From NCBI RefSeq assembly GCF_003856835.1, contig NZ_CP034145.1, forward strand, positions 186,001 to 250,000: a stretch of DNA of 64,000 nt. Direction: 5' to 3'. Made by a program: the position numbers and the translations under genes. This DNA comes from Haloplanus aerogenes. Its GTDB lineage: Archaea; Halobacteriota; Halobacteria; Halobacteriales; Haloferacaceae. The notes under the pieces were generated by a model that did no database searches, was not told the origin of the DNA, and saw only the letters and a list, made by a program, of their open reading frames with translations. This document shows positions 7,369 through 33,555 of the stretch, in pieces. Numbering within the stretch: the stretch's first letter is position 1; each line of letters begins with the position of its first letter.

Positions 7369-9438
7369 ATGAGCGAGCAGATCCGGGTCCTGCACGTGGA
7401 CGACGAACCGGATTTCGCCGACCTCACTGCAGACGCACTCGAACGTGAGGACGACCGATGCACGGTCGAGACGGCGACGAGCGCGGACGAAGGGCTGGCC
7501 CGACTCACCGACGCCGTCGACTGTGTCGTCTCCGACTACGAGATGCCCGGCCGGAACGGCATCGACTTCCTGGAAGCCGTCCGCGAGCGGTATCCGAACC
7601 TCCCGTTCATCCTCTTTACGGGCAAAGGGAGCGAGGAAGTCGCCAGCGAGGCGATTTCGGCCGGCGTGACCGACTATCTGGAGAAGCAGGGCGGCCTCAG
7701 CCAGTACACCGTCCTCGCCAACCGGATCGCCAACGCGGTCGATCAGTACCGCTCGAAGCGGGCGCTCGAAGCCAGCCAACGCCGTCTGTCGCTGTTTTTC
7801 GAACAGTCGCCGCTCGGTGTCATCGAGTGGAACGAGGACTTCGAGGTGGTCCGTCTGAACGACGCGGCCGAGGACATCCTCGGTTACGCCGAAGCCGACC
7901 TGCGCGGCGCGTCGTGGGAGCGAATCGTCCCCGAGTCGGAGGCGACAGCGGTCGGGGGAGTCGTCGACGCACTGTTACAGAACCGTGGAGGCTACCGGAG
8001 CGTCAACGAGAACGTCCGCGCCGACGGCGAGGTGATCGTCTGCGAGTGGCACAACCGAGTCGTGACCGACGACAGCGAGGAGCCACGCTCCTCGGGCAGT
8101 CGGCCACAGGCCGACGACAGCGAGGAGCCACGCTCCTCGGGCAGTCGGCCACAGGCCGACGACAGCGTCGAACACGGTTCGACGAGCAACCGGGCAGAGC
8201 CCGGTGACAGCGAGGCGTCGGAGACGCCTCGGGCAGAGAGGGACGACGTCCCTCAGGCCACCGGACGCAGTCCGGTGACAACCGGCGAAGCCGGCGACAG
8301 CGACGTGGTCGCTATCTTCTCGCAGTTCCAGGACATCACCGAACGGATCGAACGCGAGCAACAGCTCGAACGGAGCACGGCCCGACTCGAAGCGCTCTTC
8401 GAGAACTCGCCCGACATGATCAACGTCCACGACACCGACGGAAACATCATCGACCCGAACCCGCGGCTCTGCGAACGGACGGGATACGACGCGTCCGAAC
8501 TCGTCGACATGAAGGTGTGGGACGTCGACGCGCGGATCGACCCGGCGGAGGCGCTGGCGATCTGGGAAGAGATGGCCGTCGGCGACAGACACCGACTGGA
8601 GGGCGTCTACCGGCATCGGGACGGATCGACGTTCCCGGTCGAAATTCACCTCCAGCGACTCGATCTGGCGGGCGAAGATCGATTCGTCGTCATCAGCCGG
8701 GACATCTCGGAGCGGAAGGCACGCGAGCGCGAACTCCAGCGACAGAACGAGCGTCTCGAGGAGTTCGTCGGCGTCGTCTCACACGACCTCCAGAACCCGC
8801 TCAACGTGGCCGGGGGCCGCCTCGACCTCGCGCGAGAGGAGTACGATAGCGAGCATCTCGACGCCGCCGCGCGGTCGCTCGACCGGATGGACGAGTTGAT
8901 CGCGGACCTGCTGAAACTCGCGCGGGGTGGGAAACGCGTAAACGAAATCGAGCCCGTCGCGCTCGCGGACGTGGTCGAGGAGTGCTGGCACAACGTCGCG
9001 ACGGGGGACGCGGCACTCGTCGTCGAGACGGACCGGACGATCCGAGCCGATCCGGGGCGACTCCAGCACTTGCTGGAGAACCTGCTGCAGAACAGCGTGG
9101 GTCACGGCACCACGAGCAGCCGGCGCACCGAACACGCTGACGACGGCGTGGAACACAGTTCTGCGGAGAGCGAAGCCAACGGCGGCAGGGGCGACCACGT
9201 CACGATCACCGTCGGTGGCCTGGACGACGGCTTCTACGTCGAAGACGACGGCACCGGGATTCCCGAGGAGAAGCGGACGGCCGTGTTCGAGAGCGGCTAC
9301 TCGACCGCGCCGGACGGCACCGGATTCGGCCTCGCCATCGTCGAGGAAGTCGTCGAGGCCCACGGCTGGTCGATCCAGGTCACCGAGGGTGCCGACGGCG
9401 GGGCACGATTCGAGATTACCGGCGTCGAAGTCGAGTGA
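7369..9438 (+). CDS. Hybrid sensor histidine kinase REC-PAS-PAS-HisKA-HATPase
   Basis: A 689-residue soluble kinase. A receiver domain comes first (about 5-120; VLHVDDEPD, phospho-acceptor Asp56 in VVSDYEMPG), then PAS 1 (from about 133), PAS 2 (about 340-455), the dimerisation/phosphoacceptor helix with SHDLQNPL (His472) and the ATPase domain with DDGTGIPEEKR and GTGFGLAIVEE. PAS 1 is interrupted at about residues 235-311 by a Ser/Asp/Glu/Arg-rich linker whose DNA is an array of ten perfect hairpins (see 8071-8301); it falls between the last two PAS strands. A second odd linker interrupts the ATPase domain near 580-606. No cognate regulator is adjacent. Confidence 0.92.
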   Translation: MSEQIRVLHVDDEPDFADLTADALEREDDRCTVETATSADEGLARLTDAVDCVVSDYEMPGRNGIDFLEAVRERYPNLPFILFTGKGSEEVASEAISAGVTDYLEKQGGLSQYTVLANRIANAVDQYRSKRALEASQRRLSLFFEQSPLGVIEWNEDFEVVRLNDAAEDILGYAEADLRGASWERIVPESEATAVGGVVDALLQNRGGYRSVNENVRADGEVIVCEWHNRVVTDDSEEPRSSGSRPQADDSEEPRSSGSRPQADDSVEHGSTSNRAEPGDSEASETPRAERDDVPQATGRSPVTTGEAGDSDVVAIFSQFQDITERIEREQQLERSTARLEALFENSPDMINVHDTDGNIIDPNPRLCERTGYDASELVDMKVWDVDARIDPAEALAIWEEMAVGDRHRLEGVYRHRDGSTFPVEIHLQRLDLAGEDRFVVISRDISERKARERELQRQNERLEEFVGVVSHDLQNPLNVAGGRLDLAREEYDSEHLDAAARSLDRMDELIADLLKLARGGKRVNEIEPVALADVVEECWHNVATGDAALVVETDRTIRADPGRLQHLLENLLQNSVGHGTTSSRRTEHADDGVEHSSAESEANGGRGDHVTITVGGLDDGFYVEDDGTGIPEEKRTAVFESGYSTAPDGTGFGLAIVEEVVEAHGWSIQVTEGADGGARFEITGVEVE
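8071..8301. repeat. Coding array of ten short perfect hairpins with 3-nt loops, including a 45-bp tandem duplication
   Basis: Inside the kinase gene. Ten consecutive inverted repeats, stems of 5-8 bp and loops of exactly 3 nt, spaced about 20-23 bases: 8077-8093 (GAGGAGC-CAC-GCTCCTC), 8099-8115 (GTCGGCC-ACA-GGCCGAC), 8122-8138 and 8144-8160 (copies of the first two), 8167-8183, 8189-8205, 8212-8230 (8-bp stem), 8238-8254, 8259-8277 (8-bp stem) and 8282-8294. Spacers recur as GACAGC or GGGCAG. The block 8071-8115 is repeated exactly at 8116-8160. The reading frame stays open throughout. Confidence 0.95.
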
Positions 9439-25582: not shown

Positions 25583-25712
25583 ATCTCGCGGTACGACAGC
25601 CCGATGTTTGTATGCATCGGGATCGGGGACGGGCGGAAAAACGAATCGTGATGGTCACGCGCGACGCGTGGAGGTCGCTGTCGGCGGCGTCGGTCGGGCT
25701 GTCGTTCGCTAC

Positions 25713-25920
25713 GAGGCTTCGTGTTACTCAGCCTCGCCCTTCTCGCGGGTCGTTCCTCCCCGCTCGATTCGAGGCCTCGTGTTACTCGGCCTCGCCCTTC
25801 TCGCGGGTCGTTCCTCCCCGCTCGATTCGAGGCCTCGTGTTACTCGGCCTCGCCCTTCTCGCGGGTCGTTCCTCCCCGCTCGATTCGAGGCCTCGTGTTA
25901 CTCGGCCTCGCCCTGCTTCA
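25713..25920. repeat. 58-bp tandem repeats carrying copies of the tssA 3' end
   Basis: Copies at 25713-25770, 25771-25828 (identical to the next), 25829-25886, and a partial fourth from 25887 that diverges after 28 bases. On the minus strand every unit contains codons E-K-G-E-A-E-stop (the fourth has K-Q-G-E-A-E-stop), the same as the real end of tssA at 25969-25989. Each unit also contains a GAGGCC...GGCCTC inverted repeat and a GCGGG...CCCGC stem, so a tssA transcript reading through would hold a series of similar hairpins. Confidence 0.93.
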
Positions 25921-31044: not shown

Positions 31045-31442
31045 ACCCGAACGCTCGGCGCGGCGCCGCATAAACATTTCAATCTCGGCGACCGGACGCG
31101 ACGATTCGATCCGCCAGTCTCGTTGGGTGGGGAAGGCCGACACGCCGTGATCGCGGACACCGAATCCGAACCACTGTTTCTTTTCCAGCGAAAAATGGCG
31201 TCACATGTACGCTATCGCGGGTTGAGGTCTGAATTACAGAAGAAACGAAGGGGTGTGAATCTCGGGTCTGGGACGCTCCGGCGTGGCGTCCCCGATATCG
31301 AACACGACGAACAGTGACCGGTGGGAAGTAAAATAGTATCGACCGAAGGCGAGCCGCGACGGCGGGTGTGGGTGAGTAGGTGCGGATGGGCGTGGAGGTG
31401 AAACGGCGGCGTGCGACGGATCGAACGTGGATCGGACGCGCC
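31045..31442. other. Intergenic region downstream of oapC, no gene seen
   Basis: About 400 bases between the 29-codon gene (read leftward) and the oapC repeat array. It holds a 7-bp hairpin GGGACGC...GCGTCCC at 31270-31292, an AT-rich stretch AAGTAAAATAGTATCG near 31328, and an ORB core (31242-31254). No reading frame with haloarchaeal composition was found. A small RNA is possible but there is no specific support. Confidence 0.4.
31233..31254 (+). repeat. ORB-core sequence left of the oap operon
   Basis: Contains the exact 13-base core GAAACGAAGGGGT (31242-31254) shared with the origin boxes at 33589 and 33792; the first half of the box matches poorly (5 mismatches over 22). It lies about 2.3 kb from the main origin, in non-coding DNA. 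Confidence 0.5.
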
Positions 31443-31510
31443 GACGCTTACGAGTCGTCAACGTTTACGAGTCGTCAACGTTTACGAGTCGCCGACGCTT
31501 ACGAGTCGCC
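31443..31510. repeat. Four 17-bp tandem repeats containing the oapC stop codon
   Basis: Units 31443-31459, 31460-31476, 31477-31493 and 31494-31510, differing at only a few positions. On the minus strand each unit contains GACTCGTAA; in the first (31494-31510) this is the actual last two codons and stop of oapC (Gly-Asp-Ser-stop context), and the other three are downstream copies. The array therefore duplicates the gene's 3' end, as at tssA. Confidence 0.95.
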
Positions 31511-32161
31511 GTCGCGCCACGTGTCGACGACTTCGATGACGTAGTGGCCGTCCTCTTGCAGGGAGATGATACACTCCTGCCGGTCGTACAGCTCCATCAA
31601 GTTGAGTTCGTACTGACCGGGCTCGACGATTTTGATACTCTCGAACTGATCGTTGAGTTCCGCACGGAGGTCCTCGATATCCGGCTGATCGTCCGCCGTC
31701 GAGGAGTCGGGCGGAATCGTTCGGGCGGCGTCGTCGGCGGATGGCGGAGGCGAGGCCACCTCGTCGAGTTCGTCGCGGGTGACCACGTCGCGGCGGGCGT
31801 CCGCCTGTGCCGTGTCCTCCGACTCGTCGAGGACGCTCGGGTCCGACTCCGCCTCGATGTAGTCGGCGTCAGTGTCCGTGGTGGTGGGCGCGGATACGGA
31901 CGGGGAACCGCCCGTGGACGCGTCGGGAGAGCGGTCCGACGACGGTGATGGGGACGGATCGGGTGACGACGGCGTGTCCTCGGCAGGTGCGGTGTCGGCG
32001 GAAGTGTCGGACGACGCGTCGTCGTCACCGAGTGTCGGCGTCGGCGTCGCGGAGTCGGGCTTGAACTGGAACTTGTTCCCGCCACAGTCCGGACAGCCCG
32101 AGAGCATCTCCTTGGAGCCGTCGGGGAACACCCGCTCGCAGTTCGTGCACTGGTGGGGCAT
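31499..32161 (-). CDS. oapC: Origin-associated Zn-ribbon protein OapC
   Basis: A 220-residue protein. An N-terminal zinc ribbon (MPHQCTNCERVF ... LSGCPDCGGNKFQF, two CxxC pairs) is followed by a long acidic Ser/Thr/Pro/Asp linker (about 35-155) and a conserved C-terminal domain (DIEDLRAELNDQFESIKIVEPGQYELNLMELYDRQECIISLQEDGHYVIEVVDTW). Third gene of oapA-oapB-oapC next to the origin, two bases after oapB. The name follows haloarchaeal annotation of origin-associated proteins; the molecular role is not established. Its last codons are in the 17-bp tandem array. Confidence 0.85.
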   Translation of the reverse strand: MPHQCTNCERVFPDGSKEMLSGCPDCGGNKFQFKPDSATPTPTLGDDDASSDTSADTAPAEDTPSSPDPSPSPSSDRSPDASTGGSPSVSAPTTTDTDADYIEAESDPSVLDESEDTAQADARRDVVTRDELDEVASPPPSADDAARTIPPDSSTADDQPDIEDLRAELNDQFESIKIVEPGQYELNLMELYDRQECIISLQEDGHYVIEVVDTWRDGDS

Positions 32162-33453: not shown

Positions 33454-33555
33454 GCCAACTCACGGGGACTGCCAACTCATGGGAACTGCCAACTCATGGG
33501 AACTGCCAACTCATGGGAACTGCCAACTCATGGGAACTGCCAACTCACGGGGACC
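33454..33555. repeat. Six 17-bp direct repeats beside the origin
   Basis: Six head-to-tail copies of GCCAACTCATGGGAACT; the first and last carry CACGGGGAC in place of CATGGGAAC and the middle four are identical. The array sits between oapA and the first origin box, 35 bases before ORB1. The units are not related to the oapC repeats in sequence although the length is the same. No unique spacers, so not CRISPR. Iteron-like in layout. Confidence 0.95.

Follow-up and report, generated by a model that had tools for sequence, protein, structure and literature searches.

The 64-kb stretch of DNA analysed here (the window) carries, on its forward strand at 7369-9438, an open reading frame for a sensor kinase of 689 amino acids with Pfam domains Response_reg, PAS, PAS_4, HisKA and HATPase_c, arranged as response-regulator, PAS, PAS, HisKA and HATPase. 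On the same strand, five 45-nt double-hairpin units, delimited by exact sequence, occupy 8071-8295 of this gene (225 nt, 75 codons). As the original prediction had it, ten consecutive perfect hairpins lie here (8076-8293), with 3-nt loops throughout and each closed by a C-G pair. Their stems measure, in order, 8, 7, 8, 7, 8, 7, 9, 7, 8 and 5 bp; nine fall within the predicted range of 5-8 bp and one, at 9 bp, exceeds it. The repeat, supposed to be a single hairpin recurring every 22 bases or so, turned out to be a 45-nt pair of hairpins with the formula GACAG[8-3-8]RGCA[7-3-7], which encodes 15 residues and in which the spacers GACAG and RGCA alternate. Nor are the stem sequences unrelated, as had been claimed: they belong to two families that alternate along the array, CGWSGRRC and RYCGGVC, in which a change in one arm is matched in the other.

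All units are read on the forward strand. Unit 1 (DSEEPRSSGSRPQAD, 8071-8115), with its 8-3-8 and 7-3-7 hairpins, is followed by unit 2 (8116-8160), identical in sequence and hence an exact tandem copy, and by unit 3 (DSVEHGSTSNRAEPG, 8161-8205), which shares the architecture of unit 1 and has different, still perfectly paired stems. Unit 4 is split. Its first part (DSEASETPRA, 8206-8235) contains the 9-3-9 hairpin of what we refer to as a type-2 unit, and its second part (TGEAG, 8281-8295) consists of the 5-3-5 hairpin CCGGC-gaa-GCCGG; between the two, after GGCA and in the element's +1 frame, unit 5 (ERDDVPQATGRSPVT, 8236-8280) is nested. Type-2 units are likewise 45 nt long, with a 9-3-9 stem and a second, shorter hairpin, which is 6-3-6 where the unit is intact; intact representatives exist both in the window's own genome (L023) and among congeners (L243, L266, L281). 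Unit 5 matches, at all but one of its 45 positions, a copy that this genome carries in its cbiB/cobD gene (L021), and 117 nt of the array are found again at 86% in that cbiB gene, a sign that units pass from one gene to another, unrelated one.

The 64 kb contain 19 perfect stems of ≥7 bp that enclose a 3-nt loop, nine of them inside the array, while an order-3 Markov model predicts 13.5 +/- 4.5 per 64 kb; the stems outside the array are therefore background. Separately, the window holds a 58-bp tandem unit at 25712-25914 (3.5 copies, 98% identity) and two arrays of 17-bp tandem repeats at 33454-33551 (5.8 copies) and 31439-31515 (4.5 copies).

Within the first PAS domain, the array lies in frame in the turn that joins the final two strands, the very position that had been proposed. 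In 14/14 haloarchaeal orthologues compared, this turn reads VVTDxxGxxVAIFSQF and is without insert. Among congeners, the site is empty in G001, G008, G011 and G013, and just a single unit (DSVERSSTSNRPQAD) is present there in G002 and in G006, as compared to the five units in the window. AlphaFold2, in a weak model of the PAS region built with 14 relatives, renders the array as coil (pLDDT ∼31-51) and is confident about the PAS core and the C-terminal helix beside the array. This model fits a flexible linker in the kinase and is consistent with the disordered Asp/Ser/Arg linker that had been anticipated. The kinase has a further, decayed and weak copy close to its HATPase N-box (9092-9124, forward strand), matched by a sequence-only model (E 3.7e-4).

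Copies in other genes and genomes

A covariance model built from 33 units returned 55 matches in the window's genome and 65 in G002; a sequence-only model that ignores structure returned 49 in the window's genome. DNA searches of relatives gave 4-21 matches per genome of the genus. Among the 194 Halobacteria genomes, in each of which 30 candidates were scored, 181 had a match; in the phylum sample outside Halobacteria, just three genomes did, each with a single marginal one. Judging from these searches, the element appears to be confined to Halobacteria within its phylum. Neither phage records nor IMG/VR, the latter searched with a degenerate pattern, contained a match, and viral carriage was rejected on these grounds. 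Three haloarchaeal plasmids have a related stretch, in merA, glycoside hydrolase and kinase genes; no autonomous vector was seen.

Besides, two repeat groups lie outside genes. In five genomes of genus g30 (G083, G065, G040, G068, G062), loci L309-L328 are intergenic mosaics that combine the hairpins and spacers known from coding units. In several of these mosaics, identical units recur across a single genome; they are possibly a BIME-like form of the 45-nt element. In three genomes, a multi-copy non-coding repeat contains one unit with loops GTA/TAC (L271, L272, L274, L285, L286, L075).

Of 142 sites, 135 are within genes: 54 are histidine kinase N-boxes, where copies start with AAC AGC GTG GAA CAC, and 81 are in other genes. 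Pfam-confirmed hosts comprise MutS, photolyase, an HhH-GPD glycosylase, KptA, PhzF, Trm5, CbiB, molybdopterin oxidoreductase, CBS and tetrapyrrole methylase proteins. Filled and empty versions differ by exactly 45 nt in a photolyase (L024/L226), an oxidoreductase (L028/L225) and an MFS protein (L094/L215), and again between L111 and eight empty orthologues (L201, L208, L218 and five others). A solved photolyase structure has no counterpart to the inserted residues. Insertions usually adjoin a GAC codon. A search for target-site duplications gave no persuasive signal past this GAC: the start of the unit matches the following host bases little better than in shuffled sequence.

The abundance of N-box sites raises the question of whether any transposition is needed. 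NSVEHGST, the N-box sequence of histidine kinases, can be written as a 7-3-7 palindrome, and the unit could be a duplicated N-box that slippage and gene conversion spread among paralogous kinases and acidic linkers. The frequency of exact-copy tandem arrays at N-boxes and an identical nested unit common to three kinases speak for this explanation, as do the 54 N-box sites themselves. Yet it has to contend with the other 81 sites, many of them in unrelated genes, with the exact 45-nt empty/filled pairs and with antisense, +1-frame and non-coding copies; we consider it unlikely. The element may nevertheless have originated from the N-box, or the N-box may be a hot spot for it. Simple tandem repetition or slippage was rejected, given the single copies dispersed in unrelated genes. 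As originally stated, slippage accounts for the 45-bp duplication alone (units 1-2).

Copies also enter other copies. At 8 sites, a canonical host unit reappeared once 45 nt were cut out by script, as compared to 0/2370 control positions. One of these nestings can also be followed across species: in an FAD enzyme, G009 and G018 have a plain unit into whose A/B spacer a second unit is inserted in G004, and units 4 and 5 of the window represent a further case of nesting. In a pyridine-nucleotide oxidoreductase (L302 vs L073, L086), one insertion site is common to two genera, and one species has a further unit nested there.

Pairing of the stems

Across 84 distinct units, 1210 of 1260 stem cells (96.0%) are Watson-Crick, 8 of 1260 are G-T pairs and 47 of the 84 units are fully paired; the units were found by sequence only, although the position matrix behind them was trained on covariance-model seeds, which introduces some bias. 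Synonymous-codon resampling of the same units yields 62% Watson-Crick cells and none or one fully paired unit. Taken together with the orthologous kinases, which are without the insert, this is the opposite of what the original prediction would have been undone by, namely a protein sequence conserved at this place and pairing at the level of codon usage. In the seed alignment, whose members were picked partly for pairing, 9 of 15 pairs show two-sided changes (76 such changes vs 25 in shuffles), and the covariation score is 0.415 vs 0.151 in shuffles.

Pairing amounts to 89.4% in kinase N-box units, 94.3% in units of other genes and 97.3% in non-coding units; in the intergenic units of genus g30, 143 of 150 cells are paired. 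This order is the reverse of what the N-box duplication predicts. Since non-kinase and non-coding units pair better than N-box units, pairing belongs to the DNA element and not to the protein sequence.

Compared with dinucleotide shuffles, the array folds far better as RNA (z -8.5; 0/200 shuffles as good), and a selected mRNA structure by which translation of the kinase is slowed or controlled, one of the original suggestions, would explain so strong a fold. However, the array folds similarly well as DNA (z -8.2) and is missing from orthologous kinases. Copies occupy unrelated positions in dozens of unrelated genes and occur antisense and outside genes, and the stems have hardly any of the G-T pairs that RNA would tolerate. 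We therefore find no support for an effect on translation and regard it as scarcely probable. C(GNA)G loops, which are stable in DNA, close the second hairpin in 57 of 100 kinase units and 51 of 90 other units. The frequency of these loops, the near absence of G-T pairs and the paired state of intergenic copies favour a DNA over an RNA hairpin.

Comparison of orthologous insertions gave 300 unchanged pairs, 20 one-arm changes and 10 two-arm changes. Once inserted, copies thus mostly decay, though some changes are concerted, and some of the two-arm changes could represent replacement by another copy. In a calcineurin-like phosphoesterase (L102 vs L216, L200-L206), uninserted orthologues have sequence similar to the left arm of hairpin 1, and the right arm matches the left arm in each species; here, the landing site may have served as a template for the arms.

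Such arm correction is at the heart of another explanation, in which template switching at quasi-palindromes makes and re-perfects hairpins in place, and similarity among sites reflects convergence under codon and acidic-composition constraints. Stem changes in both arms with hardly any G-T intermediates are what arm correction would give, and the resemblance of one left arm to uninserted sequence (L102, L216) points the same way. Convergence, on the other hand, cannot yield a unit that has 45 nt and one and the same pair of spacers wherever it occurs in unrelated genes, nor 117 nt of array at 86% in two unrelated genes, nor nested units whose hosts are restored upon removal. As a full account we find this very improbable, but template switching may be the arm-correcting step within the mobile-element explanation developed below.

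Reading frame and origin of the array

At 132 of the 142 sites, the unit is in the same strand and frame, as called from GC3 and from reading of the translations (L296 was given no frame). Counted frame by frame, >90% of units are open in each of five frames, and two thirds in the remaining one. In most hosts, the preferred frame encodes D-S/G-x-E-x-x-S-x-G/S-S/N-R-x-x-x-D/G. Antisense copies are present in a uracil-DNA glycosylase gene (L257) and in an AzlC gene of the window's genome (L024), a +1-frame copy lies at the end of a DDE transposase (L090), and there are non-coding copies, too. Strict frame restriction is thereby rejected, and insertion itself is therefore not limited to the preferred frame. 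Rather, because the preferred peptide is hydrophilic and the other frames are more hydrophobic or rich in Arg/Leu/Trp, selection probably removes most copies in other frames.

We consider it very likely that the array formed by local accumulation of a mobile coding palindrome, akin in its working to the palindromic elements of Rickettsia. A mobile or self-templating palindromic element had been among the original suggestions, and it is strongly supported: the unit is dispersed, inserts exactly into sites that are empty elsewhere, nests, and keeps Watson-Crick pairing beyond codon usage while its sequence varies. Recombination-driven expansion, also suggested, holds for the 45-bp tandem copy and not for the remainder of the array. 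Several observations run against the mobile palindrome. The analysis turned up no mobilising enzyme, IS200-type transposase is lacking from copy-rich genomes, and past the shared GAC no target-site duplication emerged. Copies between genes are very few in the window's genus, though free movement should land some there, and one-arm changes outnumber two-arm ones between orthologous copies.

Mechanistically, new copies would be made through a single-stranded DNA hairpin, either by an enzyme that reads the hairpin in trans and cuts and pastes the unit, or by polymerase template switching, which would copy the unit and re-perfect its arms. Purifying selection would then leave mainly copies in the preferred frame and orientation, in surface turns, because the unit amounts to 15 codons with few stops and a hydrophilic Asp/Ser/Arg/Gly peptide in one frame. 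As for the kinase of the window, the likely history is that one unit entered the PAS turn, tandem duplication and the joining of variant units followed, and a further unit inserted into one of them. Mobilisation by IS200/IS605 or RAYT enzymes was rejected, as the presence of PF01797 does not track copy number: the copy-rich genomes G004, G018, G040 and G053 (30-38 copies each) have no match to this IS200-type Y1 transposase family.

A more far-reaching interpretation, which we put forward tentatively and with considerable doubt, would see in the unit a class-wide archaeal mobile element without a transposase of its own, defined by its shape. It would spread as a single-stranded DNA hairpin and use the GRCA/GAC spacer, its own included, as a landing site. 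With the arms re-perfected at each copying, the stems would drift while pairing is kept, and the element would be a steady source of 15-residue insertions.

Known palindromic elements and implications

The closest parallel are the RPEs of Rickettsia, which measure ∼150 bp and lie in frame in unrelated genes (Ogata et al. 2000, 2002, as summarised in PMC10969869, PMC6649704). Both systems are short palindromic DNAs found in frame in many unrelated genes, with a conserved, tolerated peptide and with pairing that decays after insertion. Unlike RPEs as described there, the haloarchaeal unit has 45 nt and two hairpins with 3-nt loops, is restricted within its phylum to Halobacteria, nests into its own spacer and keeps pairing while the stem sequence varies between copies. 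Judged by size and distribution, it is not an RPE. Coding palindromes of up to 284 bp, for which template switching was proposed, are known from nematomorph mitochondria (PMC6649704). They, too, are perfect inverted repeats within protein genes whose arms evolve together, but they are long, mitochondrial and not a dispersed family of fixed length (PMC6649704). REP and BIME elements are extragenic and tied to Y1 (RAYT) transposases (PMC2817692, PMC3733652). The haloarchaeal unit resembles them in its small hairpins arranged in modular mosaics, which in genus g30 are intergenic, and differs in that 135 of 142 sites are inside genes and in that Y1 genes are missing from copy-rich genomes. With MITEs it shares being small, non-autonomous, dispersed DNA; it is much shorter, however, and its hairpins are internal, with no enclosing terminal inverted repeats, nor did an autonomous partner come to light.

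The literature that we searched, which took in few subscription papers, contained no earlier description of the element in haloarchaea. To our knowledge, selfish DNA inside protein genes has been documented mainly in Rickettsia. The haloarchaeal unit would constitute a second, apparently independent system, in archaea and much smaller (45 nt), with hosts among repair, tRNA and cofactor genes. This would show that proteins gain new segments repeatedly by in-frame insertion of palindromes. Many of the Asp/Ser/Arg-rich inserts and "NSVEHGST" repeats of haloarchaeal proteins would be accounted for as well, a point of caution for annotators. As haloarchaea are culturable and amenable to genetics, movement of the element, its choice of target and the correction of its arms are directly testable.
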